Origin: a virus
IMG/VR virus record: IMGVR_UViG_3300009146_000018
Span: 1 to 47,110 of that record
Direction: 5' to 3' (one strand)
Length of the DNA stretch: 47,110 bases
Part shown: positions 1,619 through 45,026 of the stretch, in pieces
Layout of the letters: each line of letters begins with the position of its first letter
Numbering within the stretch: position 1 is the stretch's first letter
The notes under the pieces: generated by a model
The model's database searches: none
The model's input: only the letters and a program-made list of their open reading frames with translations
Told to the model about the DNA's origin: nothing
Translations under genes and position numbers: made by a program

Positions 1619-4600
1619 TGGCTTGTGCTCTTAATACTGATCAAATTGGTGATGTATACCAATTATTATATAAAACAATATCTGAAACAAAAACTGGTTT
1701 TGATTTAGGAAAACTAATCAAAGAAGTATATAATGCAGTAAAAGAAGCTTCTGATGAAAAAAAAGCTTTATTATATGCACAAGCTATGCCTGATATCTTA
1801 CAAGTTGTTACTACTGATAGTGATATAAATGATAAGTTAGTTGACTTAAATTTTAATTTTACTGCTTTAGCTATAATGAGAAAGCAGTTTAATGAGATTA
1901 AAAATGTACTCATAGAAGTTGCTGTTGAAAAAAAAAGTGCTAAAGAAATTAAACAAGAGATTAAACAAATTAACAGATCTTCTCAGAATAAAAAAGTTGC
2001 AGAACCTTTAAGTCCAGAAATGCAATGGTCTTATAATGAAAACAATGGTTCTAAAGTTGTTTATCCTTTAGCTACATCATTCCAAATAGCTTACTCTGCA
2101 AATCCTGAGACTGTTTCAGAAGATATGAGAAACAAAAAGGATCCAGAGAAGAAACTTTTCTATGATGTAATTAAAGATATAGTATACATTGCAAGACAAA
2201 GAGGAGCAAGTTCAGATGAAATTATCTACCAAGGTAAATCATTAGCATTAACTGCTATAAAATCATCTAAGTTTCCATCTGAATATCTTACAGCATATGA
2301 TAAAGAACATAAAGTAAAATATCCAGATTATCAAGGTATAATTTCTGTAATAACTGATACTGATGGAAACTTTATCTACTTTAAAGAAGATGGTAGCATA
2401 ACTGATAATCCTGCAGATGGTAGATTAGTATATCAGTATCTAAGAAAAGTAGAAAAAGTAAATAATAAATTATACTTATCTAATAGAGCAGATAGATATA
2501 CATCATTAGTTGAACCTGAAATAGTTGCTGAAAGAGAAAAGAAAGCTTTAGAAGCTAAAAATATAAAAGTTTCTGATGAACAGTTTCAATTTATGGTTAA
2601 AGAAATTGCTGATAAACAAGAAAAGCAATTAAATGATTTATACAATCTTAGAAATTATATATTAGAATCTGAAGGAGAAGTTTTATTATCTATTACCAAT
2701 GGTACATTTGGTATAAATAGTAAAAATATAAAAACAATGCCTTTATCTGAAACAGATATTAAAGCTGAAGAAATAAAAAATGCTACGTTAATTACTTCGG
2801 GAGAATTAAGGGGTCAAAAGGTTTTAGATATAAGTAAAGAAAAACCTGGTGTAACAATAGATCAGCAAATATTTCTACAAAGAGGAGATATGACAGCTGA
2901 ATTAGCTAATAAAATTGCTACTATATTAACAACAGATGCTAAATTACTTGGTAAACAACTTTCTCCTCAAGATAAACAAACTTATTTTGAAGTATTTATT
3001 AGTAATTCTATTCCTAAAGGTGAAAAAAATAATAGAGATAGAATAACAGTTAATGTTAAATATAAAGATAATATACCTTATTTATCAGTTAAAATTAAAG
3101 GTATAGAAATTCCAAAAGATAAACTACAAACAGATATTACTAAAAAGAAAATTGAACAACATTTATTAAAAGAGGCAGTATTAGCAAAAAATGGTAAACT
3201 TTATCCTGCTAATATACAGTACAATGAAACCTATCACAAGAAATCTTATACAGATTATGAAGTAGAAGATGGTAAAATTAAAGCAACAAAAAAAGATTAC
3301 TTTGAGTTTATCAAACCTTTGGCTAAAGTAACTTATGGGCAAGAAACATCTGAGTATTTTTATGGACTAAATGCTTACTTAACTTATAATATTCCACAAA
3401 ATCTTGAAGAGTCTTTAAAAGCTGAAGAAGTTTATGAAGTTGGAAGACCTGTTTCTGCTAAAAAAGAACCAGTAAAAGAAAAACCGGCTCCAGTTGAAAA
3501 GAAACCAATAGTAAAAACACCGGTAGCTAAGACAACACCTGCAGAAAAAAAGGTAGCAGATAAAGCTTTTAATATAGATACTATAGGAGATATTTTAAAT
3601 AGGCCAAATCAAACTATATTCAAAAGAGAAAAAGCATTAGATTCATTTCTTGATAGAGTATTTACTAGTAAAGCAGATAGAGATGCTGCTGAAAAATGGT
3701 GGGCAAGTTCTCCATTAAGTAGATTTATTACTCTTGAAAGAATTACAGAAGTTGTTAACTCAGATGCATTTGCTACTTGGTCAAAGTTTGGTATTACATT
3801 ATATGAAGCTGATGGTGGTACTGCAGTAGATCTTTATCATGAAGCTTGGCACGGATTCTCTCAGTTATTCTTAACTAAAGATGAAAAGGTAAGATTATAT
3901 GATGATCTAAGAAAATTACCTAAATGGACAAATGCAGAATACTTTGATATAGAAGAAGCAATAGCTGAAGACTTCAGAGATTATGCAAGAAGCCGTGGTA
4001 AAAAAGAAGCTCCAAAAGGATTACTTGGTAGAATATTCAAGAAAATATATAACTTCTTAAATAACTTGTTCTCAAAAGTTACCAAAGAACAGATGGCTAC
4101 TAGACCAAGAGATGTAGCTTCTATTGCAGAAATGTATGATAAGTTATACAGAGCTTCAGAAGATCCTTCAATCTTGCAGAATTTAAAGCCTAGTATGGAG
4201 AATATTATGTTTACTCAAATGAATAGAGCTAAACATATACAACCTGTTAAAGCTGAAGTTAAAAACTATGCACCATTTACTATTGATGAATCAGTTAAGA
4301 TAGCTAATTCAATTGATAATATGATTGCTGTTGTATTTCAAGCATATAACAGAGAAAAAGAAACTACTTCAGGTGCTATAAAAATATTACAAAACCCTGA
4401 AAATAGACTAAATCTATATGGTGAAGTTAAAAATAGATTCATAGAGTTAAGAAAAGCTTATTCAGATGCTTATGTAGGAACATTAGAAGCTAATAAAGAA
4501 TCAGATACTCCAAACTTATTCAGAGAAAAACAACTAGCAGACAGAGTAGAACTACTTAATAAGATAGTTTTAAACTTTGGAAACATTAAACAATCTGTAG

Positions 4601-7600
4601 AAGGTGATCAAAAAGTAGGTGTGATAGCTTACCACATGCAAAAATCTAAATTTACCACACTGAAAGAAAGTTATAAAGAACTTGCAGAAGATCCAACTAA
4701 CTTAGATCAGACTACACTGTTTAAAACTGACGGTGGTAACAAAGTAGCATCAAGAGATATTGCTAGTGAAGATACTATGACTATATTATCTAGTATTTTT
4801 AAAACAAGCAAAGATGAAAATGGTAATTTAGTAAATGAAAAAGACTTCTTAGGTTTACCTCAGCTAGAAGATGCTGATATAATGTGGAACAGACTTGCTA
4901 AAATATTAGAAGGTTCTTTTGATGAAACAGAAATGTATAGAAGAATAGTTGAAAACTCTGGTAATTATCCTGAGTTATATCAATTACAAAACCTATTACC
5001 AAATCCTGCTACTAATAAATACAATACTACTAATGAGTTTACTGCTGAGACTAAATTCTGGCAAGATCTTAAGAAACCAAGAATACCTTATATCCAACTT
5101 AACTTAAACAAAGAAGGTAAAGGAGACAAAGTTGCTTTTGAAGCTAGACTTGCTAATGCAAGCTTTGATGTTTATAAAGTAATCAGAGATTGGAAAAATA
5201 ACTTTGTTACACAAACTCATGAAACTAATCCATATTTACATTCTTTAAAAGATGGTTATAGAAAAAATACATTAAACACTCAAAAAGTTGTTGATGACTT
5301 TGGTAATAATGGAGTTTTTAAATTTAAAAAAGGTCTTGAGTTTTTAGAAGCTATTGGTATACACTTAGACACAAGTAGTGCAGCTATTAGATCTATAGTA
5401 GGTAAATCATCATTCTCTATAGAATATGGTATAGATAGGATGTATGAAGTTATTAAAAAAGTAAATAAAGCTGGAGATACTCTTGAAGCTCTTGAGTTTA
5501 AACAAGATCCTATTAAATATTTACAAAAAGGATTACAAAAAGAACTTAGAGAAATAGAAAAAGAAAGTGAAGAAGTAAGTGGAAGATTAAGAGTATTGGC
5601 TGAAATACAAAATATGTATTCAGATTCTTATTCTAATTTTAGTGTAAACAGTCCTGAGAAAAACAGAGTATGGGAACATTTCTTAGATAATACTATTACT
5701 AGAGTTGTTACATCAATTAATAAAGCTGAAAACTGGCAAGAATTAACAAGTAATGAAGCTGATCCTAATGGTTTATTTAAACACATGAGATGGCTAGGTT
5801 TTGATAATAATACATTTACACCATTTTCTAAATTATTAGGTTCAATATTTGAACTTGATGAGCTTTCTCCAAACTTTGGAAAAAAGAAAGAAGGAGCTAA
5901 GCTTACACTTCAGAATGTTTCTGGTACACAAGTTGTATCTAAAAAAGATAATGAAACTATGGGTGTCTCTACAGCTTCTATGGATGCAACAAGTAAGTTC
6001 CTACAAGAGTTACATACTATGTTGCTTAATGGAGTTGAGGAGTTCATGAGACATGCTTCTAAGCAAACCTCTATGGGTATTACTGTTAATGATAAAATTA
6101 ATACCTATGATAATAAACAAGCAAATAAGTTATATGTAGATATTGAAGCTTTCAGACCAGGTAACTTTGGTGAAGATAAAGCATTTGATATTATATCTGG
6201 ATATATCTCAGGTGAAGCAAACAGAATCTTTAGATTTAATTCTGATGAAGATAAATATAAAAACTGGGCTGGTTACAACAGAGAGGTAAAGAGAAAATCA
6301 GATGGTAAAACAGTAATGGCTGGACAAGCATTTACTGCATTTGATGATGTCCTTAAAGCAGATACTCAAAAAGAAATATATGCTATTATACAAAAAGCTA
6401 ATGATAACAATGAGCAAGACTTTGATCTTTCTGAAGTATTAAAAGAAAACCTAGATTTAAGAGAGAAAGTTAGTAAAGATGTTATTGACTACTTTGATAA
6501 GCTAACAGAAAATAATAATAAAAAACTTAACAAAACTAAGTTTGTTGATCAAGGTTTAAAAAGTAGAGCAGATAGATCTGATCAAAAATTAACACCTGCA
6601 GAAGTTCAAGAAACATTAGTTAAAGCTTATAGTTATAACTCTTGGATACACAAGTTTGAGACTGCAATTATTGCATATGGAGATTTTGTACAGTATAATC
6701 ATGAGAAAGAAGAGTTCCATAAAAGGAATGCTGGTTTAGGTTCTGGTGGAAGAAGTTTCCGTGCAGACTTAAGAGCACAATCTTTTGTTAATGGATTCCA
6801 ATTTAAAAAGTATTATGCTGATAAAATGGGTATTCCTATTAAAGCTTATGATGGTACTTTAACTTCAGCAATTATTAAAGAAGCTAAGTTTGATTCAATA
6901 TATCATGATGAGTATAGAAAAGAACTAATCAAAGTATATACCAAAAGATTAGGTAGTGCAGTTAAAGCAACTGAACTTGCTGATAAAGCATTGGGTGAAT
7001 ATTTTGGAATGAAGATTGGTGATGGTCAAGGTCATATTGGCTTTGAAGCATATAGAATGCTTAAAGTTTTAGAAGGTAATTGGTCAGATCCTCAAGAATT
7101 GTTATACAGAAAAGTAGCAATGGGAGAAAATGTAGCTATGGAAGATGTAGTAGAATTTTTTCCTCCATATAAGTTACAGTATTATGGTAACATGCAAACA
7201 ACAGGATTACCTCTTGTATCATTTCATAAGTTTTCATTAGCACCAATTATACCTGGTGTAGCAAAACCTGGTACAGTTTTATATGACATGCATCAGAAGA
7301 TGATGAAAGATGGTTTAGACTATGTGTTATATGAATCAGGCTCTAAGGTAGGACATATAGGTAATGGTGATGAAATACTAACTCCAGAAGGCACTTTTAA
7401 CAAAAATGTAGAGTTTACTAAAAATGTTGTATTTGCTGAGTTCTTAAAAAACCAAACTGAAGTTAACTCTTCTTTCAAAGGTAAATCTATATTCTCTACT
7501 CAGATGAGAAAATTAATCCTTGAAGGATTATATGAACAAGGTTTTATAGATACTACAGATGAAACTAAGATAGTTCAACCATTAGTAACAAAATATCTAG

Positions 7601-10600
7601 ATGATGTATCTGAATACACTGAGTTGTTAAAACTTGAGTTACTTGAAGAGATTGGTTATGAAGAAACTCCTTCAGGTGAATATGTTGCTAGAGATAAAAG
7701 CAGCATGGGTAAACTAGTTAATTTAATTAGAACCAACTTAGAAAGAGAAGATGTATTAAGTGATGAGTTAATTGACTTCATAGATACACTTGATAATGGT
7801 GACTTAGAAAATGATCTTTCTTTACATCCAGAATCTGGTAAAATTGAGAAGCTTTTACTATCTATGATTAATAAAAGAATCATAAAACAAAAAGTAAAAG
7901 GTGAACCACTTGTACAAGTATCTTCATCAATGTATGAGAACAATATCAAGTTACCTCTTAAAGCAGCCACTGAAGCTGATATAAAAAAATGGGTAGGTAC
8001 TAACCTTCTTCCAACTTATCATAAAGGTAAAGATGGTAAAACTGCAGCTATGAAAGTAATGATAGCAATGCAAGGTGATTACCAAAACTTATTTAATCTA
8101 GAGTATAAAGATCAAGAAACTATAGCTGTATACTTTGAAGATGGTATTATAGATATGAATAATAGTTTAGCCAGACTAAATGAAAAAATAAAAGATGATG
8201 AATGGCTAGATGCAGATAATAAAGCAAATAGAAAAGCTATTACATTAGTGGGTGTTAGGATTCCAGTACAAGGTCTAAACTCTATGGAATTTATGGAAGT
8301 GTATGAGTTCTTACCTCCACAAGCAGGTAATATCATTGTGCCTCCAGCTGAGATAGTAGCTAAATCAGGGGGTGACTTTGATATTGATAAACTTACTATA
8401 TTCATGACTAATATAGATAAGCAAGGTAAATTAAAGAAAAAAGTACATCAAGATAATTCTTGGATAAAAGAACAGGTGAAAGAACTAAACCAAAAAGGTG
8501 AATCTTTAGATAAATTATTTAAAGATCAAAAAGCTGGTTTGGAAAATGATCTTATTGAAGATATCAAGAACATATTAGAGTTACCTGATAACTATGCTTC
8601 TCTTATAACTCCAAATGGTACTTTCTTACTTAAAGACATTGCTGAAAATTTATCAGATGATGTTACAGACTATAACAGGTTTGAAAACATAATGACTGAT
8701 GGTAACACAAATGCTAAAGGAAAAAGAATAATAAGCCCAACAAGAGTTTTAGAAACTGAGTATAACATATACAAACATGAATCTAATATAGTTGGTAAAA
8801 GAACATTAGGTTTAGGTGCTATTGAAAATACATTCAATGTATTGTTAAATTCAATTGGTGCTTATATGCCAAATTCTTATGCAGCTAAAGATTACATTAA
8901 AAATGTAAATCTACATTTAAGACATAATACTATTGATGTAAAAGGAGAGAAAAGAATTTCTTTATCTAATCAGTATGATGTAGACAATGTAAATAAAGTA
9001 GCAGATATCTATTCTCAAGCAATGAATGGTTGGGTGGATGTTGAGAAAGATGCATGGATCTTCTTTATACAAGGTAATTATGAAGTATCTCCAATATTAT
9101 TATACTTGGTTAAAACTGGTGTACCTGTTGAAGAAGCAATTTATTTTGTATCTCAACCATTAGTAAGAGAGTATGTTAATGAACAAAGAGCATATACATC
9201 AACTTTTGCTGAATTATTAGGTAAAGTAAGTGGTGGTAGAGGTTTAGTAAAATATAAAGCAGCATCAGATGTAATTACAAAACATTATAATCCTGCAGTA
9301 TACGGTAAACTTAATAAGAATATTGATAGATATGAAGTTGGTAATCAATCTGTAGAAAAGTTATTCAAGAACAGAGCTGAAGGTAAAAAACATTTTACTG
9401 AGTCAGAGATGAGAAAACTTATTTCTGATACTAAAAAGAACCCAGCTGCAGCAGATAGTGAATTATCACTTGCAATGTTCTTGCATTACTTACAGATTGA
9501 AGACAATATCAAAGGAATTACTAAGTTAAAAATGAATTCTAATCCAGATACTAGTACTAAATCAGTACTATCTGATATAGAACAAACTGAAGCTAATATT
9601 GAGAATCTTAAGTATGATGAAAGTGTTTCTGAATTACTTGGTAAACTTATGAATGACTCAGTTATTAAATCATTCTTTAACGGACCTTTAGCTTTAGCAA
9701 TCAGTAGACCTTTGTTTAAACTAAGATATCATAAAGCAATTAGTGATTTCATCATAACAAAAGGTGATTCTATAAGAGAAGATGTAGAAAGTACATTTGG
9801 TGAAGGTAAAAGAGAAGTATTTGTTAATACTTTCAGAAATGATATAGTTAGCTTTATCTTACAAAATGCAATCAGAAGATATAGACTAGGTGATTCATAC
9901 ATGGGCTATGAGCTTACTACTGCAGTTCCTACGGCAACTATGAAATCTGAAAAATATGGAGCTTTTGTTAAGACAGATAAAGATGGTAACAAAAAATTAT
10001 TTGTTGATGAGAAGAGAATCCAAAAAGAATTCTTAAGTAAAGCTTGGGCAGAAAATTCTGAAGCAGAAAACAACTATGAGTCATTAGGATATTATCCATT
10101 AAATGAGGCTACCTTCATGAGAAATGGTACTAAGAACTATAATGAGTACTTAAGATTTGTTATTGAAAGAGAATATTTAAGGTCACTTATTCCTATAAAA
10201 GAATCTGGAGCTACTACCAGACCAGAATATGAAAAGTTCTTAGCTGAAAAAGCTTTAGATAACACCTTTAACTTTTATCATTTGTTTAAAGATAAAGATA
10301 ACTCTATGGCAATTAGATATAGTAATCTAATGAATGAATTTCCATTACTTGCTGCAGACTATGCTTTGTTATCAAAGATGAAGTTCAACACTGATAAAGA
10401 CAATAGAACTTTTAATATTGAAGTAGCAGAGAAAGAATATGATAATACTAAATCTACACTGTATACTAAAAACTTAAAAGATCTATCAGATCCTACAGTA
10501 GTTAAAGTAGAGAATGCTGAAGACAACAAAAGAATCAGTGATTTTTTTAGTAAGTTATCTATGTTTGCTTTCTTACAAACCGGATTAAATAAAACTAAAC

Positions 10601-11457
10601 TAAGCTTTACTAATATAGTTGACTACACAGACTTCTTAACTATAATGAAGAGTGAGTCTAAAGTATTTATGGATGCATTAGATTCAGATAAAGGTTTTGC
10701 TTTATTAGATAACTTCTATAAGTTGTTTATACAACAGAATGATGGTAATAACAAAGATAAAGAAAGATATAAAGACTACTTATCTACTATTAACTATTAT
10801 GAACCAGGTAAGATAAAACAAGTAGCTACTCCAACTGAAAGAAAAGGAATTGTTCAACCAGTTACTGATGTAGTAAGTGAAGAAGTTCCATTAACTACAA
10901 AAAAGTATCTTTCAGAAACTGATGTGGATAACATATTTACATTCAATGATGCTAAAGGTACTACAGAGTATTACAGAAATCTTGTTAATGAAAATTCTGA
11001 TATAGTATTTATTCCAAATGTTACTGTTAAAGAGATACAATCAGAGTATACAATATCTTTTGGAGGTCAAACTAATATCATCAAAGAAACTCCTGATATG
11101 ACAATTAATATTCCTACAGGTTTATCAACTGCTAAAGATGGTTTTGCAAGTCTTGCACCTAATAAATTCCAAGATGTTAAAGATATTTTTGAAAGAAGAA
11201 TTGAAAGTATCAAGAATTTGCTTAACAAAGATGTAAAAATTGCATTTGCAGAAACAGGATACGGAGATCCAACTAGGATGCCTCAAGAATTATTTGTATA
11301 TTTAAGTAGGAGATTGTATGAAGAATTTGGATATTTGAATCCTGGTTCTATGATGTTCCAAGAAGTAAAAGAAGTATTAAGTAAAACTCAAGGTATATCT
11401 GATGAAGAAATTCTAGCAGAGTTAGAATTAACTGAAGATCCTTTTAAATGTTCATAA
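1618..11457 (+). CDS. Giant virion RNA polymerase (crAss-like, DFDID motif) with zincin-like domain
   Basis: The protein has 3279 residues. Residues 2251-2258 read GGDFDIDK, matching the DxDxD metal-binding motif of the two-barrel RNA polymerases of crAss-like phages (phi14:2 gp66 type). The upstream segment with KFSLAPIIPG (about residues 1873-1882) probably belongs to the same core. An HEAWH zinc-peptidase-like motif lies at 741-745, after a Lys/Pro/Ala-rich linker at about 610-650, so the N-terminal third is probably a separate domain set. Known family members are packaged in the virion, injected with the DNA, and transcribe early genes. The gene starts on the stop of the previous gene and is followed after 3 bases by another giant gene, so the three form one late operon. 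No in-frame stop or frameshift is seen. The polymerase call is firm; peptidase activity is unproven. Confidence 0.88.
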   Translation: MACALNTDQIGDVYQLLYKTISETKTGFDLGKLIKEVYNAVKEASDEKKALLYAQAMPDILQVVTTDSDINDKLVDLNFNFTALAIMRKQFNEIKNVLIEVAVEKKSAKEIKQEIKQINRSSQNKKVAEPLSPEMQWSYNENNGSKVVYPLATSFQIAYSANPETVSEDMRNKKDPEKKLFYDVIKDIVYIARQRGASSDEIIYQGKSLALTAIKSSKFPSEYLTAYDKEHKVKYPDYQGIISVITDTDGNFIYFKEDGSITDNPADGRLVYQYLRKVEKVNNKLYLSNRADRYTSLVEPEIVAEREKKALEAKNIKVSDEQFQFMVKEIADKQEKQLNDLYNLRNYILESEGEVLLSITNGTFGINSKNIKTMPLSETDIKAEEIKNATLITSGELRGQKVLDISKEKPGVTIDQQIFLQRGDMTAELANKIATILTTDAKLLGKQLSPQDKQTYFEVFISNSIPKGEKNNRDRITVNVKYKDNIPYLSVKIKGIEIPKDKLQTDITKKKIEQHLLKEAVLAKNGKLYPANIQYNETYHKKSYTDYEVEDGKIKATKKDYFEFIKPLAKVTYGQETSEYFYGLNAYLTYNIPQNLEESLKAEEVYEVGRPVSAKKEPVKEKPAPVEKKPIVKTPVAKTTPAEKKVADKAFNIDTIGDILNRPNQTIFKREKALDSFLDRVFTSKADRDAAEKWWASSPLSRFITLERITEVVNSDAFATWSKFGITLYEADGGTAVDLYHEAWHGFSQLFLTKDEKVRLYDDLRKLPKWTNAEYFDIEEAIAEDFRDYARSRGKKEAPKGLLGRIFKKIYNFLNNLFSKVTKEQMATRPRDVASIAEMYDKLYRASEDPSILQNLKPSMENIMFTQMNRAKHIQPVKAEVKNYAPFTIDESVKIANSIDNMIAVVFQAYNREKETTSGAIKILQNPENRLNLYGEVKNRFIELRKAYSDAYVGTLEANKESDTPNLFREKQLADRVELLNKIVLNFGNIKQSVEGDQKVGVIAYHMQKSKFTTLKESYKELAEDPTNLDQTTLFKTDGGNKVASRDIASEDTMTILSSIFKTSKDENGNLVNEKDFLGLPQLEDADIMWNRLAKILEGSFDETEMYRRIVENSGNYPELYQLQNLLPNPATNKYNTTNEFTAETKFWQDLKKPRIPYIQLNLNKEGKGDKVAFEARLANASFDVYKVIRDWKNNFVTQTHETNPYLHSLKDGYRKNTLNTQKVVDDFGNNGVFKFKKGLEFLEAIGIHLDTSSAAIRSIVGKSSFSIEYGIDRMYEVIKKVNKAGDTLEALEFKQDPIKYLQKGLQKELREIEKESEEVSGRLRVLAEIQNMYSDSYSNFSVNSPEKNRVWEHFLDNTITRVVTSINKAENWQELTSNEADPNGLFKHMRWLGFDNNTFTPFSKLLGSIFELDELSPNFGKKKEGAKLTLQNVSGTQVVSKKDNETMGVSTASMDATSKFLQELHTMLLNGVEEFMRHASKQTSMGITVNDKINTYDNKQANKLYVDIEAFRPGNFGEDKAFDIISGYISGEANRIFRFNSDEDKYKNWAGYNREVKRKSDGKTVMAGQAFTAFDDVLKADTQKEIYAIIQKANDNNEQDFDLSEVLKENLDLREKVSKDVIDYFDKLTENNNKKLNKTKFVDQGLKSRADRSDQKLTPAEVQETLVKAYSYNSWIHKFETAIIAYGDFVQYNHEKEEFHKRNAGLGSGGRSFRADLRAQSFVNGFQFKKYYADKMGIPIKAYDGTLTSAIIKEAKFDSIYHDEYRKELIKVYTKRLGSAVKATELADKALGEYFGMKIGDGQGHIGFEAYRMLKVLEGNWSDPQELLYRKVAMGENVAMEDVVEFFPPYKLQYYGNMQTTGLPLVSFHKFSLAPIIPGVAKPGTVLYDMHQKMMKDGLDYVLYESGSKVGHIGNGDEILTPEGTFNKNVEFTKNVVFAEFLKNQTEVNSSFKGKSIFSTQMRKLILEGLYEQGFIDTTDETKIVQPLVTKYLDDVSEYTELLKLELLEEIGYEETPSGEYVARDKSSMGKLVNLIRTNLEREDVLSDELIDFIDTLDNGDLENDLSLHPESGKIEKLLLSMINKRIIKQKVKGEPLVQVSSSMYENNIKLPLKAATEADIKKWVGTNLLPTYHKGKDGKTAAMKVMIAMQGDYQNLFNLEYKDQETIAVYFEDGIIDMNNSLARLNEKIKDDEWLDADNKANRKAITLVGVRIPVQGLNSMEFMEVYEFLPPQAGNIIVPPAEIVAKSGGDFDIDKLTIFMTNIDKQGKLKKKVHQDNSWIKEQVKELNQKGESLDKLFKDQKAGLENDLIEDIKNILELPDNYASLITPNGTFLLKDIAENLSDDVTDYNRFENIMTDGNTNAKGKRIISPTRVLETEYNIYKHESNIVGKRTLGLGAIENTFNVLLNSIGAYMPNSYAAKDYIKNVNLHLRHNTIDVKGEKRISLSNQYDVDNVNKVADIYSQAMNGWVDVEKDAWIFFIQGNYEVSPILLYLVKTGVPVEEAIYFVSQPLVREYVNEQRAYTSTFAELLGKVSGGRGLVKYKAASDVITKHYNPAVYGKLNKNIDRYEVGNQSVEKLFKNRAEGKKHFTESEMRKLISDTKKNPAAADSELSLAMFLHYLQIEDNIKGITKLKMNSNPDTSTKSVLSDIEQTEANIENLKYDESVSELLGKLMNDSVIKSFFNGPLALAISRPLFKLRYHKAISDFIITKGDSIREDVESTFGEGKREVFVNTFRNDIVSFILQNAIRRYRLGDSYMGYELTTAVPTATMKSEKYGAFVKTDKDGNKKLFVDEKRIQKEFLSKAWAENSEAENNYESLGYYPLNEATFMRNGTKNYNEYLRFVIEREYLRSLIPIKESGATTRPEYEKFLAEKALDNTFNFYHLFKDKDNSMAIRYSNLMNEFPLLAADYALLSKMKFNTDKDNRTFNIEVAEKEYDNTKSTLYTKNLKDLSDPTVVKVENAEDNKRISDFFSKLSMFAFLQTGLNKTKLSFTNIVDYTDFLTIMKSESKVFMDALDSDKGFALLDNFYKLFIQQNDGNNKDKERYKDYLSTINYYEPGKIKQVATPTERKGIVQPVTDVVSEEVPLTTKKYLSETDVDNIFTFNDAKGTTEYYRNLVNENSDIVFIPNVTVKEIQSEYTISFGGQTNIIKETPDMTINIPTGLSTAKDGFASLAPNKFQDVKDIFERRIESIKNLLNKDVKIAFAETGYGDPTRMPQELFVYLSRRLYEEFGYLNPGSMMFQEVKEVLSKTQGISDEEILAELELTEDPFKCS

Positions 11458-11460
11458 ACA

Positions 11461-14400
11461 ATGACTTGTCAAGTAAAACAGGAATCAATTAAACATTTGA
11501 TTAAAGAAGGTGCTATTAATAAAGATAGAAAAATTATAAAACTTGATATATTTGACAAAGCAAATTATCAACTAACAGAATATGCAGTTAGAAAATATGG
11601 CCTCAAAACAGATGGGGCCATGCTTTTTACTAACAGTGTTACTGAAAAAATTGATAAAAGAGCATCTTCAGATATAAGAAATGCATATTATGAAACAGCC
11701 AGAGCTATACCTAATGAAGTATTATTTCAAGAACTACAAGTACTGATAGATCAGTATTATAATGTAGCTAGTACTCCTACAGTATTACCTAAAGAAACTA
11801 CTAAAGAACTTAAACCAGGGATAGAAGAACTATTTAATTCTATTCCTGAATTAGCTAATATAGGAACACTTGAACAATATTCTCAATACTTAGATAGTAT
11901 ATTTCCTGACAGCAAAATAAAGGATATTGTTTATCATGGTACTTATGAAAAATTTAATAAATTTCTTAAAGAAAAAAGAGGAACTACTACAGGTTTAGGA
12001 ACATATACTGATCCAATTACAGGAGAAAAAATAGAAATAGATTCATCTTCTGCATTCTTTTTTACAAATAATAAAAATGCAGCAATAAGTTATGGTTTTA
12101 GAGGTAGACAAAATTTAATTGAAAAAGTAGAAAGAGCTTTAGAAAGTGTGTCTATAACTATAGGAAGAAGAATGCCTATACAAGAAGCTGTAGATTACTT
12201 AAAAACTATTCCTTACTATAATAATTTAATTAATACTGCTAAAAAAGAAAATAAATCTAATGCAGAAATAATTGAACTATTAAAATTAGAATGGCAAAAA
12301 GTTAGAAAACAATCAAAAAAAACTTTTGATACTTTCTCCAATTGGAAAAATAATAATGATGAGGATATTAATTCAGTTAAAACATTATTAAAAAATATTG
12401 ATAAGTTAAAAGCTAATGATCCAAATATTAATATCAGATTTGGAAATTTTAATGAAACAAAATTAAGCAGAGATATGTTTTCTGTTTATTTTGATAATAA
12501 TGAATATACTTTTGTATCACCAGAAAAAAGATTTAAAAGTAAAGATGTTTCAACAAAAGATATAGAAAATTATTTAAATAGTTTTTTAGAACATTTATTA
12601 AAGAATGATGAGGAAAGAAAATTAGAACAAAAACAAGCAGGTTATGTTGAAAATGTTATGCCTGCTGTTATAAATCTAAAAAATCCTTTAACACATGACT
12701 ATGAAAAATCTGCTTTTCCAGATGTTTATAAATTAAATGAAAAATATAAAACATCATATATAGCAGCAAGACAAGTTAAAAAAGCTTTAAAAGATGGAAA
12801 TGATGGTGTTATTTATGAAAATATACAAGATCCATTATTAATTGATTCTTATGGAGTATTTGAACCAGAACAAATACATTTATTAGGTGGTGAACAAGAT
12901 ATACAAGGATTTAAAAACTTTGTATCTGGTAGACCAATGATGATGAAAGAAACTGTTGGTGAAGCAATTCCTTTAGTTGACATAGATCTTAATACTATTA
13001 ACAGTGCAAGATCAAAAGAAGTAGCAGAAGTATTAGCTGAGAGATTATCCAGAGGATTAAAAGTAGACTATGAAAATATTACTCCTGAAGATGCTAAGAA
13101 CATATTAAAGAACTCACCTGTACCATACAGAGGAGAGCCCGCATTTTACTTTGGTGGTAAAGTATATATAGTAGGAGATAATGTAAATGTTCATACAGTG
13201 TTACATGAATTCTCACATCCATTACTACAAGGTATCAGAAAAACTAATCCTGCACTATTTAATAATTTATATACTCAGTTAGCAGGAACAGAAGAAGGCC
13301 AAGGAATAATAGAATATGTAAAAAAACATTATCCAGAACTTGATCCAGAAGGACAATTGTTTAAAGAAGAAGCATTAGCTTTTGCTTTACAGTTAAAATC
13401 TCTTAACAAAGTAAACAATCAAATAGAGACTGAAGGTTTTGATAACTTCATAAACAAACTACTTGCTGCTATTAAACAAATGCTCCGTGGAATATTTGGT
13501 AATACAGTTACTGTATCTAAATTAGATGTAGATACTACACTGGATGAGCTAGCAGACATGTTACTGGAGAAAGATTTTGAGTTTGAAACTGATAAAATTA
13601 CTGAGGATGACTTAGTAATGTACGGCAGATTTGTTGTTGAAAGAGCTGATGAGTTAGTCAAGCTGTCTAACACAGAAGCAATGCAGAAAGTAGTAAATGA
13701 AGTATTTGCTACTAACAAAGCTTTGTTAATAAGAGCAAAAGAATTTAAGACTGATAAAGCTGTAAGAGCTATGGTTGAAAAGGCCTTATTAAAAGAAGGT
13801 ACTACAGAGCTATTACCTGCTATTGCTGAAAGTTTGAGAAGTTACCAAGATATACTAGTATCAGATAAGCTTAATTCATCACAGATTATTGATAATGCAT
13901 TAGATGCTGAAGGTAAAAGACTGGATGAGATGAGAAATAGAGCTATTGCATTAGTAAATAGTCTTGATAAAATCAATTCTATAAGTCAGAATATGATGAA
14001 AGATCTAAGTAAGATCTATCTTGAAAAAAATATAAATGCTAGAAATACTATTGGTCTTGTTAATTTGTATAAAAACAATGCTTATGCATGGCAGAATACA
14101 ATAAATGAGATAAACAATATACTTAGTGATTTTGAAATTGATACAGCTAATCCATTCTATCAAGTAATAAATGAAATAACCACTAACTTATCAAAGGTTC
14201 AAACAAAAATTGCAGACATATATAAGAAAAATAATGTGCAGTTCTTTGTTGAGATAACTGGTTATATGAATGAATTTGTAAACAATGAATTGAAGTCTAA
14301 CCTTGGAATTGCCTTAAAGAAAGCTTTTCCTGAAGGGGAACTGGAGAAGGCTGTAAGTACCTTGTATAATTCAGTAATACAACAAACTTTATCTGATGTT

Positions 14401-17400
14401 GAAATTGATGAATTGGTTAAGAAAGGTGTTCCAAAAGATATACTAGATAAGTTTATCAAAAAATACAATGACTATCTTGTTAATGAAGATAAAATAAAAG
14501 ATGCATTAACAGGACATGCTAAAGATGTATCTTGGTTTAATAGATGGTTAGAAAGTTATAGCTCAAGTAATGACATCATTGTTGGGCCTTTATCTATGTT
14601 TATACAGGATCAGAAAACTGAGGTAGAGAATGAAGTATGGAAAAAGTCCATGGAGTTTAGAAAAAAATTGGAAACATTACTTCCTAAAGTAGGATTCAGT
14701 AAGTTAGACTCAACTCAAATAAGAGACATGGTATCCGGTTTAGATACTATAATGAGCTTTGACAAAAAAACAGGTAAACCTGTTGCCAAAGAAATATATA
14801 CTTTCTTGAATGAGTTTAACAATGGCTGGAGATATACACAAGATTTGTTAGAATATAACTATGAAGAGGCTAAGAAAACTGGTGATAAAAATGCTATTGC
14901 AAAAGCATTAACAGAGCTAAGACAGTTTAACTCTGATTATATGTGGCAAGAATTCACTCCTGAGTTCTATGAGAAAGATGATATCTTTAAAAACTCTGAG
15001 ATAGGTGGATTAGCTTATGTTGCAAGAAAACAAGCCTTAGATAACTATAACAACATACAAAATCAGTTTGATAAAGAGTTAGAAAGATTTGATAACTACA
15101 GTACAATTGAGGGTGCATGGAGACAATACCAACAATTATATTCTTTGTATTATGAAGATGGTAGTCAAAAAGTAGATGATCCAGCTAAAGGTATACATGA
15201 TTTAAGTATTGCTAAGTTATTACTTGAACATAGACAAGCTACAAGAGGTTTTTATGAGTTTATTCCTATTCCAGGTTCATTACAAACATCATATAATGAG
15301 TTTGTTACATTACTTGAAGCTCAAAAAATTACAAGAGGTTCTGCTGAGTTTATAGATAAACTTAAAAAATGGAAGAGACAAAATATTAAAGTAGTATATA
15401 CTGATGAGTATTATGCAGAGATAAAAAGACTGCAAACTAGAAGACAAGAATTGCAAAGTAGAATAAATGAAATAATGCAATCTGACTTTGATATAAGTGG
15501 TGCTTATCAAACTATAAGAGATTTAATATTTAGTTATAAAGATGAATTAGGTCAACCTAATCCTGATGAACTTGGTCCAGAGAGACTAAAAATGATTAGA
15601 GATTTAGAACAAGAAATTCTAGATTTTAAAAGAAAATTTGATAAAAAAACTGGTTTAACAAAAGAACAGTCTGCTGAGTTAGAACTTTTATCTGAAAAAG
15701 CTAAGAGAACAGAAATGAATGAAGCAGAATCAAAAAGATATGTATATCTACTACAGCTTTTAAAAAATGCAGGTATTGATATTAAAGAAGCATTAGAACT
15801 TAAAGGTATTTTTGAAGAGTTAAAAAGTTTGTCAAATAAAGTACCTACTGAATATTATTTAGATAGATTAAATACTAACTTATCTAAATTAGATATTAAG
15901 GAGGTTGATGAAGATACTGTAGATGCATTTATAAACACTCCAGATTTTCAAAATATAGTAGATTCAGATAAAAACTTCCGTGAGTGGTTTGATTTAAATC
16001 ATGTTATTACTTATAGATTTAATACTAAAACAAAACTTGAAGAGCCTTATTATCAAAGATCTGCTGCTAACTCATTAACAATTCCTAGTAATCCTAAGTT
16101 TTATAAAACAACTACTATAGTTGATACTGAGACAGGAGAGAATATAACTCTAATGGGTACACCTAATTCCCGTCACTCTAGATTTGAAGTAAAAAATCAG
16201 TATAGAACAATTCCAAGAGGAGCTGTAAGACAAGAATATGTAGGTAAGTATATAGATAACAAAGGTAATAACTTACCAAGACCGTTTGTACCTGGTGCTA
16301 AGAACAGTGCTAAAGATGATAAATTCATTGATAAAAGATATGCACAGTTAAAAGCATCAAATTCAGCAGAATACCAATTGCTTGAAGCAATGAAAGAATA
16401 TCATTTGCAAGCACAAGAAGGTCAGAGTAACTATGGTAAGTTATACTTGGATATGCCAAGATATGCTACTAAAGCTAGTGATGTTTACCAAATAATTCAA
16501 AGAGGTAAATATGGTGAGAGATACAAAGAGATGGGTAAAAACATTTATGAAGGTCTTAAACAAACATTTGGAAATTCAGTTGCAGATAATGAAAATGGTT
16601 ATAACTACAATCCTGAAAATAACTTAGTAAATACTGATATGGCTGGTAATGAAATCAGTTATATTCCAGTAACTGGTGTTTATAATCTTGATAAAGAAGT
16701 AACAGATGCTGATGTAATACAAGGTATATTTAAATATTCTATGTCTCTTCAGACTCAAGGTAAGTTACTAGAAAGTTTACCACTTGTGGAATCTATTCTT
16801 TCTACATTAGAAGATCCAGCCAACAAACCAAAGAATGTTGACAGATTCAGTAAAGCTGCTTTCAATGTAAGAAACAAATTACAAAACACTAATAAACAAG
16901 GAGCTGAAAACAACAGACTTGGTCAAGTAAGATCTTTACTAGAAAGAGAATACTATGGTAAACAAGTAGTAGGTTTAGAAGAGAACTATCCAAGATTAGG
17001 TAAATGGTTAGGTGTTTTACAAAAACTATCTTCTAGAGGTTCATTAATGTTAAACATACCTTCAGATATAAAGAATCAATTCTCTGGTTATATTCAGACA
17101 ATAATTGAAGGTTCTGGTGGAGAGTTTATAACACTTAAAGATATTGCTTTAGCAACTCCATGGGCTACTAAAGCTATGTTAGATTGGACTACTAAAGGTA
17201 TATACCAAGTTGGACCAGGAGAAATGTCTACACAATTAGTAGAAATCTTTGATCCTACATTCAAAGCTGAAGATAGCTTTGGTAGATCAGTTACAAGAAG
17301 TTTAGCAAAAGATTTAGTAAATGGAGAATGGTTATACATGCACCGTAAGTTTGGTGAGATGGATGTAGCTATGAAACTATTTGGTTCTTTCTTACATGGT

Positions 17401-18516
17401 CAAAAAATAGATCAAACTCTTTCTAATGGTAAAAAGATATCTATAAGATATGTTGATGCTTGGGAAAAAGATGCTAATGGTGTTGCTAAGTTAAAAGATG
17501 GTATACATCCAGGTTGGAATAATACTGCAGTATACCATACTTATACTAAAGGAGAAACCTTAGAACAAATAGCTAAGAAATATAATATAGACTTAGAAGA
17601 ACTACAAGCTAAAAATCATATCAAATCTACTACTCAGTTAGAAGATGGTCAAGAAATAATAATAGCCAAGTCTGAAAAGTTTAAAGCCTTTAAAAACAAA
17701 ATGCAAGGAACTTCAAGAAGACTATTTGGGGTTTATGATAAATTTGGACAACCAGAAGGTAATAAGTACATTATGTACAGAATGTTTTTCTTCATGAGAA
17801 AATGGTTTACTCCTATGTTAGTAAACAGATTTGGAATGGATGTATCTAAAGAAAACTTTGGTGGAGCAAGATATGATTGGGCTCTAGGTAAAACTACTAA
17901 AGGTTACTATGTTAATGCATTCCAAACATTAGTTGGTTTACTTAAAAGTAAAGGTAGTAGTTATGCATACATGACACCTCAAGAGAAAACTGATTTAAAA
18001 AGAACAATGTCAGAAGGTTTAACTATTATCATGACTGCATTATTAGCATCTGCTTTATTAGGTTTTGATGATGATGATGAAGATAAATGGAAAAAAATAG
18101 CTGCAAGATCTGAAGCTATTGGTCAAGAAGGATTTAATACTTATGGATTCTTAACTAATCATGCTCTCTTACTAATATTAGGTTTACAAGCTGAAACAGG
18201 TGCATTTGTTCCATTACCAAAAGTATTTGGATTAAACTTAGGAGCTGATGATTATACTAAAATGATTACATCAACTTCATCAGCTTTTTATAATACAGTT
18301 ATATTATATACTGAGATCTTTGGAGATTTCTTAAACTTTATAACATTAGATGATGCTGCTAGATACAAGAAAGATACTGGTCCTTACTGGTGGCAACAAA
18401 AAGATGAGCTTAAGATATGGAAAAGATTGTTCTCTACTGTAGGATTTACAGGTGGAACAGGAGATCCGGAAACAGCCATCAAAAATATATCTAAGAGTTC
18501 AGGCAAGTTGAGATAA
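11461..18516 (+). CDS. Giant polyvalent virion protein: ART-like, zincin and LysM domains
   Basis: The protein has 2351 residues. Near the N terminus YHGT (158-161) followed by AFFFT (198-202) fits the start of an ADP-ribosyltransferase-like domain of the type found in phage polyvalent proteins. HEFSH at 582-586, preceded by VHTVL, is a zinc-peptidase-like motif. Residues about 2025-2070 are a LysM-like repeat (YTKGETLEQIAKKYNID, then NHIKSTTQLEDGQEIIIA), which usually binds peptidoglycan or chitin. A hydrophobic stretch ending in a run of Asp (about 2187-2208) could be membrane-active. The middle is long, helical and charged. Such proteins are packaged with the genome and enter the host at injection, so a role in ejection, wall passage or early host modification fits. 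It starts 3 bases after the polymerase gene and ends just before a strong terminator. Confidence 0.75.
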   Translation: MTCQVKQESIKHLIKEGAINKDRKIIKLDIFDKANYQLTEYAVRKYGLKTDGAMLFTNSVTEKIDKRASSDIRNAYYETARAIPNEVLFQELQVLIDQYYNVASTPTVLPKETTKELKPGIEELFNSIPELANIGTLEQYSQYLDSIFPDSKIKDIVYHGTYEKFNKFLKEKRGTTTGLGTYTDPITGEKIEIDSSSAFFFTNNKNAAISYGFRGRQNLIEKVERALESVSITIGRRMPIQEAVDYLKTIPYYNNLINTAKKENKSNAEIIELLKLEWQKVRKQSKKTFDTFSNWKNNNDEDINSVKTLLKNIDKLKANDPNINIRFGNFNETKLSRDMFSVYFDNNEYTFVSPEKRFKSKDVSTKDIENYLNSFLEHLLKNDEERKLEQKQAGYVENVMPAVINLKNPLTHDYEKSAFPDVYKLNEKYKTSYIAARQVKKALKDGNDGVIYENIQDPLLIDSYGVFEPEQIHLLGGEQDIQGFKNFVSGRPMMMKETVGEAIPLVDIDLNTINSARSKEVAEVLAERLSRGLKVDYENITPEDAKNILKNSPVPYRGEPAFYFGGKVYIVGDNVNVHTVLHEFSHPLLQGIRKTNPALFNNLYTQLAGTEEGQGIIEYVKKHYPELDPEGQLFKEEALAFALQLKSLNKVNNQIETEGFDNFINKLLAAIKQMLRGIFGNTVTVSKLDVDTTLDELADMLLEKDFEFETDKITEDDLVMYGRFVVERADELVKLSNTEAMQKVVNEVFATNKALLIRAKEFKTDKAVRAMVEKALLKEGTTELLPAIAESLRSYQDILVSDKLNSSQIIDNALDAEGKRLDEMRNRAIALVNSLDKINSISQNMMKDLSKIYLEKNINARNTIGLVNLYKNNAYAWQNTINEINNILSDFEIDTANPFYQVINEITTNLSKVQTKIADIYKKNNVQFFVEITGYMNEFVNNELKSNLGIALKKAFPEGELEKAVSTLYNSVIQQTLSDVEIDELVKKGVPKDILDKFIKKYNDYLVNEDKIKDALTGHAKDVSWFNRWLESYSSSNDIIVGPLSMFIQDQKTEVENEVWKKSMEFRKKLETLLPKVGFSKLDSTQIRDMVSGLDTIMSFDKKTGKPVAKEIYTFLNEFNNGWRYTQDLLEYNYEEAKKTGDKNAIAKALTELRQFNSDYMWQEFTPEFYEKDDIFKNSEIGGLAYVARKQALDNYNNIQNQFDKELERFDNYSTIEGAWRQYQQLYSLYYEDGSQKVDDPAKGIHDLSIAKLLLEHRQATRGFYEFIPIPGSLQTSYNEFVTLLEAQKITRGSAEFIDKLKKWKRQNIKVVYTDEYYAEIKRLQTRRQELQSRINEIMQSDFDISGAYQTIRDLIFSYKDELGQPNPDELGPERLKMIRDLEQEILDFKRKFDKKTGLTKEQSAELELLSEKAKRTEMNEAESKRYVYLLQLLKNAGIDIKEALELKGIFEELKSLSNKVPTEYYLDRLNTNLSKLDIKEVDEDTVDAFINTPDFQNIVDSDKNFREWFDLNHVITYRFNTKTKLEEPYYQRSAANSLTIPSNPKFYKTTTIVDTETGENITLMGTPNSRHSRFEVKNQYRTIPRGAVRQEYVGKYIDNKGNNLPRPFVPGAKNSAKDDKFIDKRYAQLKASNSAEYQLLEAMKEYHLQAQEGQSNYGKLYLDMPRYATKASDVYQIIQRGKYGERYKEMGKNIYEGLKQTFGNSVADNENGYNYNPENNLVNTDMAGNEISYIPVTGVYNLDKEVTDADVIQGIFKYSMSLQTQGKLLESLPLVESILSTLEDPANKPKNVDRFSKAAFNVRNKLQNTNKQGAENNRLGQVRSLLEREYYGKQVVGLEENYPRLGKWLGVLQKLSSRGSLMLNIPSDIKNQFSGYIQTIIEGSGGEFITLKDIALATPWATKAMLDWTTKGIYQVGPGEMSTQLVEIFDPTFKAEDSFGRSVTRSLAKDLVNGEWLYMHRKFGEMDVAMKLFGSFLHGQKIDQTLSNGKKISIRYVDAWEKDANGVAKLKDGIHPGWNNTAVYHTYTKGETLEQIAKKYNIDLEELQAKNHIKSTTQLEDGQEIIIAKSEKFKAFKNKMQGTSRRLFGVYDKFGQPEGNKYIMYRMFFFMRKWFTPMLVNRFGMDVSKENFGGARYDWALGKTTKGYYVNAFQTLVGLLKSKGSSYAYMTPQEKTDLKRTMSEGLTIIMTALLASALLGFDDDDEDKWKKIAARSEAIGQEGFNTYGFLTNHALLLILGLQAETGAFVPLPKVFGLNLGADDYTKMITSTSSAFYNTVILYTEIFGDFLNFITLDDAARYKKDTGPYWWQQKDELKIWKRLFSTVGFTGGTGDPETAIKNISKSSGKLR

Positions 18517-43410: not shown

Positions 43411-43677
43411 TTAGATATCAAATAATACTTCTTCTTCTTTTATTGCTTCTTCTTTAACTACATTGTTGTCAAAAATAGCAAATCTGGTTGAGTCATAAAA
43501 CTCATAGGGAAAAGACATTTCAGATAACTGGACTTCTTTGAGTAAAAATCCAAACTTACCAGCCTGCAACCCCATTCTTACAGCTTTAATTACTGTGTAC
43601 ACTTCACCTTTCTTAATCCATTCACTAGATGATATTCTTACAGGTTTATTTTCATCATTAATACATATCACCTGCAT
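43411..43677 (-). CDS. Hypothetical protein downstream of the ClpS-like gene
   Basis: 88 residues. KKGEVYTVIKAV and FGFLLKEVQL suggest a small beta-barrel domain of a type often seen in phages (MQVICINDENKP start), with an acidic tail (KEEAIKEEEVLFDI). It overlaps the ClpS-like gene by 20 bases and is followed by a terminator, so the two are co-expressed at the end of the unit. Confidence 0.65.
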   Translation of the reverse strand: MQVICINDENKPVRISSSEWIKKGEVYTVIKAVRMGLQAGKFGFLLKEVQLSEMSFPYEFYDSTRFAIFDNNVVKEEAIKEEEVLFDI

Positions 43678-43912
43678 ATTCTTCTATTTCTGATTGGATG
43701 TATACTAAATCAAATCTACTTTTTAAGTCATACATATCATCAAAATTTCCAGTTTTAACTGTACATTTTCCTGTATGATGAGCTATAACAGCACATTGTT
43801 CAGCTTGAATAGGTTCATGGTCACAAAATTTAATTAAACAAGCAGCTACATAAGGAAATGAATTACTTTCATCATTTATTATGTTTACTTTATGTGTTTT
43901 AGTAGTTTCCAT
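43658..43912 (-). CDS. ClpS-like N-degron adaptor
   Basis: 84 residues from the ATG at 43912 (METTKTHKVNIINDESNSF). A longer frame from 43975 exists but would overlap the helicase gene by 47 bases, and family similarity starts only after the 43912 ATG. NDE at 13-15 aligns with the NDD of ClpS that binds the N-terminal amine, and IAHHTGKC (43-50) aligns with the VHxxG motif, whose His also contacts the N-degron. ClpS proteins deliver substrates with destabilising N termini to ClpAP/ClpCP. A phage copy could redirect or block host proteolysis. Alignment done by eye; the fold length is that of a bare ClpS core without the N-terminal delivery arm. Confidence 0.78.
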   Translation of the reverse strand: METTKTHKVNIINDESNSFPYVAACLIKFCDHEPIQAEQCAVIAHHTGKCTVKTGNFDDMYDLKSRFDLVYIQSEIEEYAGDMY

Positions 43913-43928
43913 AATGTAATATAAGCAT

Positions 43929-45026
43929 TTATAGTTTAATATTAAAATCCTTCCATAGTATTTTGTTTTGATCAAAACCTTCTAATGCATCTGTAACCCA
44001 CTTCTGATCAACAGTATCCACATAACATAGTATATGAATGATTGCTTTATCATCTGGATTAAGTCTTAGTAATCTACCAATTCTCTGACTAGCCTTTCTC
44101 TCATTACCATAAGCATGCATTATTATTCCTTGTTTTAAATTTGGAATATTAACACCTTCACTTAATTGTAATACAGTAGATAACTTGTTTACAGTACCTT
44201 CTTTAAAGAGTTCTAGGTTTCTATCAGAATCAGGATTATTACTATGATAACTATAGTCACAAAGTTTATCAGCTTGATCTTGAGTATTTGCAAATAAGAT
44301 ACATTTACTATCTATATTATTAAATAATATCTTAGCATACTTTTCTTTAGTTGGATACTCCATCATTGCTTTCATTCTCATTACTCTAAGAATATGTATA
44401 GGACCGGAACCAACATCAATTCTTCTAGACCAATAATTATAATTATCAACCTCTGAAGTTTTAAATGTAAGATTCTTGTTCTTTACTGCATAATTCTTAT
44501 CAGTACCAAGACTAATCTCATGAACAATAATCTGATAATCATTAATGATTTTGTTTTCTATAGCTTCATCTGCTTTGAAAGTATATACTACAGGACAAAA
44601 CTCTTTTACAAGTTGTCCTTTCTCAGATCCTCCATGTTTAGGCGGAGTACCTGTAAGACCTAGTATCTTACCTTTATAGTTCTCAAGAAAGTTTCTATGA
44701 GAATTAAGTAAACTGTGAGCTTCATCAAGATATACAATATCATAATCTCTTGGATTATGTTTATTTAAACTGAGGTAGGTAGAAAATACAATCCTTCCAA
44801 GTAAATGTTGCAATTCAAATTTCTCTGCATCATCAATCCAGGATTGAAAGATAGATCTCTTTGGTGCTACAACTAATACTTTATTCAAAGGAGTAGTATT
44901 TCTTTCCATATGATTTAAACCTACCAGTGTCTTTCCTACACCAGTACCTAATACTACAGTACATCTCTTTTTTGTATCAGTGGTAGCTAAAGCTTCCATC
45001 TGAATTTCTTGCCTATCTTTTATCAT
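43929..45026 (-). CDS. SF2 DNA/RNA helicase
   Basis: 365 residues. Motif I GTGVGKT (27-33), Ia VVAPKRSIF, motif II DEAH (101-104), motif III LTGTP (124-128), and in the second RecA lobe ILFANT, VLQLSEGVNIP and motif VI SQRIGRLLRL. It is compact, like phage UvsW-type helicases that remodel branched DNA, and may drive recombination-dependent replication or R-loop removal. It is flanked by an HNH protein gene upstream and the ClpS-like gene downstream. Confidence 0.92.
   Translation of the reverse strand: MIKDRQEIQMEALATTDTKKRCTVVLGTGVGKTLVGLNHMERNTTPLNKVLVVAPKRSIFQSWIDDAEKFELQHLLGRIVFSTYLSLNKHNPRDYDIVYLDEAHSLLNSHRNFLENYKGKILGLTGTPPKHGGSEKGQLVKEFCPVVYTFKADEAIENKIINDYQIIVHEISLGTDKNYAVKNKNLTFKTSEVDNYNYWSRRIDVGSGPIHILRVMRMKAMMEYPTKEKYAKILFNNIDSKCILFANTQDQADKLCDYSYHSNNPDSDRNLELFKEGTVNKLSTVLQLSEGVNIPNLKQGIIMHAYGNERKASQRIGRLLRLNPDDKAIIHILCYVDTVDQKWVTDALEGFDQNKILWKDFNIKL

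Follow-up and report, generated by a model that had tools for sequence, protein, structure and literature searches.

An armless ClpS-family protein in a crAss-like phage lineage and its possible role as a decoy in the N-degron pathway

The window analyzed here, a 47,110-nucleotide stretch of viral DNA (IMG/VR record IMGVR_UViG_3300009146_000018, positions 1 to 47,110), encodes an 84-residue protein that belongs to the ClpS family by sequence and by fold. Phage-encoded ClpS as such is not new: it was described in jumbo phages by Iyer, Burroughs and Aravind, who regarded it as probably serving host ClpAP as an adaptor (PMC7824862), and INPHARED records of several cultured jumbo phages list it among their annotations. 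What is new is its occurrence in a crAss-like lineage, its uniformly armless form, the repeated change of a pocket His to Asp, and its strict pairing with a second small gene. A preliminary description of this DNA had knowledge of no characterized phage ClpS of this kind, which is correct as far as function is concerned (no functional study of a phage ClpS was found in the literature searched) but not with regard to the reports and annotations just mentioned. Based on the conserved pocket and on the anatomy of the protein under E. coli rules, we give roughly even chances to the idea that it serves as an N-degron-binding decoy or shield restraining host ClpS-Clp proteolysis. The features concerned are the following:

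43658..43912, minus strand: clpS, encoding an 84-residue ClpS core protein without N-terminal extension
43859..43882, minus strand: β1-loop, codons 11-18 (IINDESNS), with the aligned α-amine contacts N13, D14, and E15 and the pocket residue N17
43856..43858, minus strand: codon 19 (F19), aligned with the gatekeeper M40 of E. coli ClpS
43778..43780, minus strand: codon 45 (H45), aligned with E. coli H66
43706..43744, minus strand: codons 57-69, predicted helix α3 (AF2 model and alignment), the site of the ClpA-contacting helix in E. coli ClpS
43658..43677, minus strand: 20-nt overlap of the clpS 3' end with the start of the next gene
43411..43677, minus strand: partner gene of 88 codons, a small β-rich protein of no named family
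43929..45026, minus strand: SF2 DNA helicase (ResIII and Helicase_C), the upstream neighbor, 16 nt before clpS

The clpS reading frame extends from an ATG at 43912 to a TAA at 43658 and encodes METTKTHKVNIINDESNSFPYVAACLIKFCDHEPIQAEQCAVIAHHTGKCTVKTGNFDDMYDLKSRFDLVYIQSEIEEYAGDMY. ClpS (PF02617) is the single Pfam family matched by this protein (residues 3-63, E=1.6e-12), and the score of 47.5 bits is twice the curated cut-off of 23 bits. An NCBIfam search returned ClpS models only, with scores under their strict cut-offs, and no ClpS-type family matching the protein was found in PHROGs. Its AF2 model (pLDDT 89.7; modeled secondary structure E7-12 H19-30 H34-47 E49-55 H57-69 E74-78) retrieved 38 PDB chains in Foldseek at E<=0.001, all of which are ClpS or ClpS-like, before unrelated folds start. 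The best match is Mycolicibacterium 9ayo (rmsd 0.6, TM 0.95), and E. coli ClpS 2wa8 aligns with a TM of 0.85. The gene has 55 distinct phage relatives and is under purifying selection, with a median pairwise dN/dS of 0.31 and values below 1 in 329 of 329 usable pairs. A chance motif match as the source of the ClpS likeness is ruled out by profile, fold, conservation, and dN/dS, and so is an identity as L7/L12 C-terminal domain, whose Foldseek matches are about three orders of magnitude weaker than those of ClpS. The ClpS-like nature proposed in the preliminary description, which also suggested an AlphaFold comparison, is borne out by profile, modeled fold, tree, and comparative data.

Within the phage ClpS sequences, mean entropy amounts to 0.73 bits in the N-degron pocket, compared to 1.16 in the remaining core and 2.03 in helix α3. 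The NDE motif, earlier assigned to the amine-binding positions of ClpS, indeed falls there in the alignment (N13-D14-E15 corresponding to E. coli N34-D35-D36). N13 and D14 are invariant in 55/55 sequences, and position 15 is Asp in 44/55 and Glu in 2/55, the window protein carrying Glu. In the HHxG motif (HHTG), the first His (H45) corresponds to E. coli H66, and the second (H46) is not conserved. Position 45 is His in 45 of the 55 sequences, Asp in nine, and Asn in one, which takes at least five changes on the tree, whereas the equivalent His is invariant in host Bacteroidota ClpS (79/79). The ten carriers of the replacement are L028, L032, L034, L061, L071, L072, L074, L084, L086, and L087. 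The gate residue is Phe in 40/55 and Tyr in 15/55 phage proteins and Phe in all 79 aligned Bacteroidota-type ClpS, and A41 is kept in 54/55. The predicted hydrophobic pocket of the window protein (F19, V22, A41, and A44) is of the host Bacteroidota type. As the Phe gate and the Ala at the M62 position are present already in host Bacteroidota ClpS, the pocket is inherited from the host. A pocket remodeled by the phage is mostly ruled out, since the phage-specific changes are confined to the His-to-Asp/Asn replacement and to position 15.

The N-terminus, on the other hand, sets the phage proteins apart. Only six residues lie ahead of β1 in the window protein, and the leader before the NDD motif counts 12 residues in phage ClpS versus 24-28 in host ClpS, the Asn of the motif being residue 13 in the former and residue 25-29 in most bacterial relatives. 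In 42 of 58 phage clpS reading frames, no ATG, GTG, or TTG start is present upstream of the 12-residue leader. A TTG at 43975 in the window would lengthen the protein by 21 residues, but those codons lie mostly within the helicase reading frame, and a hidden arm is ruled out on both grounds. The earlier notion of a core-length ClpS with its arm missing is thus upheld, and, as judged from the reading frames, the disordered N-terminal arm has been lost uniformly across the phage clade. The extension that is needed for delivery in E. coli, and that is outside the Pfam core definition, is absent from the window protein. In E. coli, the ClpS arm enters the ClpA channel, where the pore loops grip it, and ClpS-assisted degradation is inhibited when this entry is blocked (PMC9663308). 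Helix α3 of E. coli ClpS touches ClpA through E79, E82, and K84 (PMC12493166). The aligned residues in the window protein are N56, D59, and Y61, although host Bacteroidota ClpS departs from E. coli here too. Position 61 is mostly Leu, Phe, or Tyr in phage ClpS versus Glu, Lys, or Gln in host ClpS, and, on the alignment, helix α3 of the phage proteins has diverged from that of the host.

The nearest cellular relatives of phage ClpS are chromosomal ClpS proteins of Flavobacteriia and other Bacteroidota, with 37-57% identity. In a ClpS tree of 91 sequences and 75 columns, whose inner forks are weak, the 25 representatives of the phage proteins group together in a single clade with support of 100/94, nested within Bacteroidota ClpS. 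The ClpS proteins of the jumbo phages Phosso, PA5oct, Atu_ph07, SCTP-2, and Vibrio 2.275.O are placed elsewhere, and those of three phages of 634-642 kb are not joined to the crAss-like phage clade. The simplest reading of this tree would be one capture of a Bacteroidota ClpS by an ancestor of the crAss-like group, separate from the jumbo-phage captures, followed by vertical descent as a near-constant gene.

The window carries a DNA polymerase, helicases, and two adjacent giant reading frames of 3279 and 2351 residues (1618-11457 and 11461-18516, plus strand), and no structural module was found in it. The 3279-residue protein has no PHROGs or PDB match and the second one contains a LysM/endolysin-like segment; their probable identity is that of crAss-type RNA polymerase or of proteins packaged in the virion. 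The structural genes were read in G006, a relative of 118 kb with the same helicase-clpS synteny, which encodes a Crassvirus muzzle protein (PF25731, 1.6e-27) as well as portal, large terminase (TerL), and major head proteins (MCP) matched in PHROGs. Its TerL matches are mainly from Crassvirales and from Flavobacterium, Bacteroides, and Azobacteroides phages. More generally, the phages that carry clpS reach ~120 kb, and their muzzle, portal, and terminase proteins are of the crAss-like type. Because of these families and TerL matches, the carriers are crAss-like in a broad sense, in agreement with the preliminary description, and their hosts are probably Bacteroidota. A SET-domain match (PF00856, 9.4e-9), unusual in a phage, was obtained for a 932-residue protein of G006 (L260:14751-17546, minus strand).

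Flavobacterium phage Fpv20 and all five Crassvirales genomes examined lack ClpS. As a general crAss gene it is therefore ruled out, and it is a trait of the present phage group rather than of the order. The ClpS/Clp pathway is present in the likely hosts, given that ClpS is encoded in 146 of 148 Bacteroidota genomes and Clp_N proteins in all 60 sampled Flavobacteriales genomes. No ClpP was found in eight relatives of 112-123 kb, which dismisses a phage-encoded ClpP as partner there and means that any proteolysis must go through host machinery.

The locus has a constant layout. In a search based on the upstream helicase, 80 loci were retrieved, 79 of which had room to test for clpS. It adjoins the helicase in 74 of these 79, with a start between 13 nt inside the helicase gene and 29 nt past its end, and in the other five the helicase is directly followed by the next conserved gene, clpS and the 88-codon gene both being missing. 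The two small genes overlap in 161 loci carrying both, mostly by 20 or 29 nt (136 of the 158 related loci counted, among which are 98 different clpS DNA sequences), and all 80 loci found with the 88-residue family also contain clpS; the helicase-, pair-, and partner-based sets overlap in some contigs. Neither gene was seen without the other in the loci examined. Overlap, joint loss, and the lack of single genes point to translational coupling of clpS and its partner, and perhaps to a joint role. The partner protein (beginning MQVICINDENKPVRISSSEWIKKG...) has no Pfam or INPHARED match, and its AF2 model (pLDDT 77) is a small β-rich fold. Reading a function from it was rejected, as it has no family and its Foldseek matches are weak only.

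The conserved pocket, the missing arm, and the divergent docking helix lead us to favor the decoy or shield, which the preliminary description had offered as an alternative, over a working adaptor. In this mechanism, phage ClpS would bind proteins with a bulky hydrophobic first residue via N13, D14, E15, H45, and the hydrophobic pocket, but, having no arm to thread into the ClpA/ClpC pore, would not release this cargo for degradation. During infection, phage and host ClpS would be rivals for N-degron proteins or for the Clp N-domain, and phage proteins (or those of the host) would thereby be protected against ClpS-dependent degradation, while the 88-residue partner may be co-translated and act together with it. 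Several points speak against this. The loss of the arm is judged by E. coli rules and delivery in Bacteroidota may need less of an arm; no study of a Bacteroidota ClpS, alone or with its unfoldase, was found in the literature. Moreover, the partner could provide a delivery element, the divergence of helix α3 may be a matched compensation instead of a loss of docking, and the Asp or Asn at position 45 in 10/55 relatives could weaken their N-degron binding, although Asp at this position also occurs in Leptospira ClpS1 (PMC12493166).

A true adaptor, which would dock on host ClpA/ClpC and redirect degradation to chosen host or phage proteins, is the less probable alternative. It fits the family membership, the conserved pocket, and the Clp_N proteins of the hosts, and the same role has been proposed for jumbo-phage ClpS (PMC7824862). 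Against it stand a helix α3 unlike that of host ClpS and the clade-wide lack of the delivery arm, which is mostly retained in the ClpS of jumbo phages and of the 640-kb phages. It is improbable that the protein simply occupies the Clp N-domain and so protects phage proteins, ssrA-tagged or otherwise, from the host protease, with the N-degron pocket being irrelevant. E. coli ClpS does inhibit the degradation of ssrA-tagged proteins by ClpAP (PMC9663308, PMC12493166), yet the arm itself suppresses the ClpA ATPase activity there (PMC12493166), and a pocket more conserved than the remaining core combined with a less conserved helix α3 is the opposite of what such a blocker predicts. Least probable of all is a reuse of the ClpS fold, e.g., for binding free amino termini in a regulatory or ribosome-linked (L7/L12-like) complex: the distantly shared fold of L7/L12 C-terminal domains (Foldseek E 5e-3 and worse) and the recurrent His-to-Asp/Asn change would suit it, but all 38 PDB matches at E<=0.001 are ClpS or ClpS-like, the sequence profiles match ClpS only, and N13 and D14, which contact the amine, never vary.

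In a more specific form of the decoy reading, to which we give somewhat less than even chances, the phage protein would be a dominant-negative N-recognin, i.e., an armless ClpS, fixed in an overlapping pair with the gene of a small β-rich protein, that would sequester N-degron proteins and thereby shut down this pathway in the host. We know of no earlier phage countermeasure against this pathway, so that such an N-recognin, if confirmed, would be the first, and it would imply that the N-degron pathway limits these phages. An armless ClpS with a conserved pocket, retained across a large group of crAss-like phages, offers a direct test of any influence that the N-degron pathway of bacteria may have on infection by phages, including the questions whether such a ClpS protects phage proteins and which of them bear an N-degron. 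Should it bind tightly, phage ClpS, with its altered pocket residues, would moreover provide a naturally occurring binder of N-terminal amino acids that may be of use as a reagent.

Among known systems, the chromosomal ClpS of Bacteroidota (Flavobacteriia) is closest, sharing the QAEQCA and GKC signatures, the Phe gate at the M40 position, and the Ala at the M62 position. It differs by its 24-28-residue leader, its invariant His, and charged residues at position 61 of helix α3, where phage ClpS has a 12-residue leader, His/Asp/Asn, and mostly Leu/Phe/Tyr, respectively. The ClpS proteins of E. coli (2wa8, 3o2b) and Caulobacter (3dnj) share the fold (TM 0.83-0.85) and the N, D, D/E, and H amine-contact positions with the phage protein, but only ~15-18% identity. 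Here, phage ClpS has no N-terminal extension, E. coli Met40 and Met62 are replaced by Phe and Ala, and E79, E82, and K84 are not kept as a set. Jumbo-phage ClpS (PA5oct, Phosso, Atu_ph07, SCTP-2, and GAP32; AMM43882.1 in PMC7824862) is likewise phage-encoded and a putative feeder of host ClpAP, but it occupies separate places in the tree (GAP32 being outside the tree) and mostly retains the arm. The exception is Vibrio phage 2.275.O, whose ClpS has an equally short N-terminus and Asp at the His position. In Salicola phage SCTP-2 (L309), another phage gene, with the annotation ClpX, is located two genes away from clpS. The unannotated 634-642 kb phages LR745206, LR756502, and LR756504 (L006, L007, and L008) encode ClpS proteins with Bacteroidota-type signatures and 35-42% identity to the window protein, which are, however, 93-94 residues long, with a longer N-terminus, outside the crAss-like clade, and with different gene neighbors. 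In LR745206, clpS lies between a HAD-phosphatase-like frame and a terminase-like frame of 710 residues. Finally, Leptospira ClpS1 resembles some of the phage proteins in its aromatic gate (Tyr36), its Ala58 at the M62 position, and its Asp62 at the His position (PMC12493166), but it is chromosomal and retains a 22-residue N-terminal arm.
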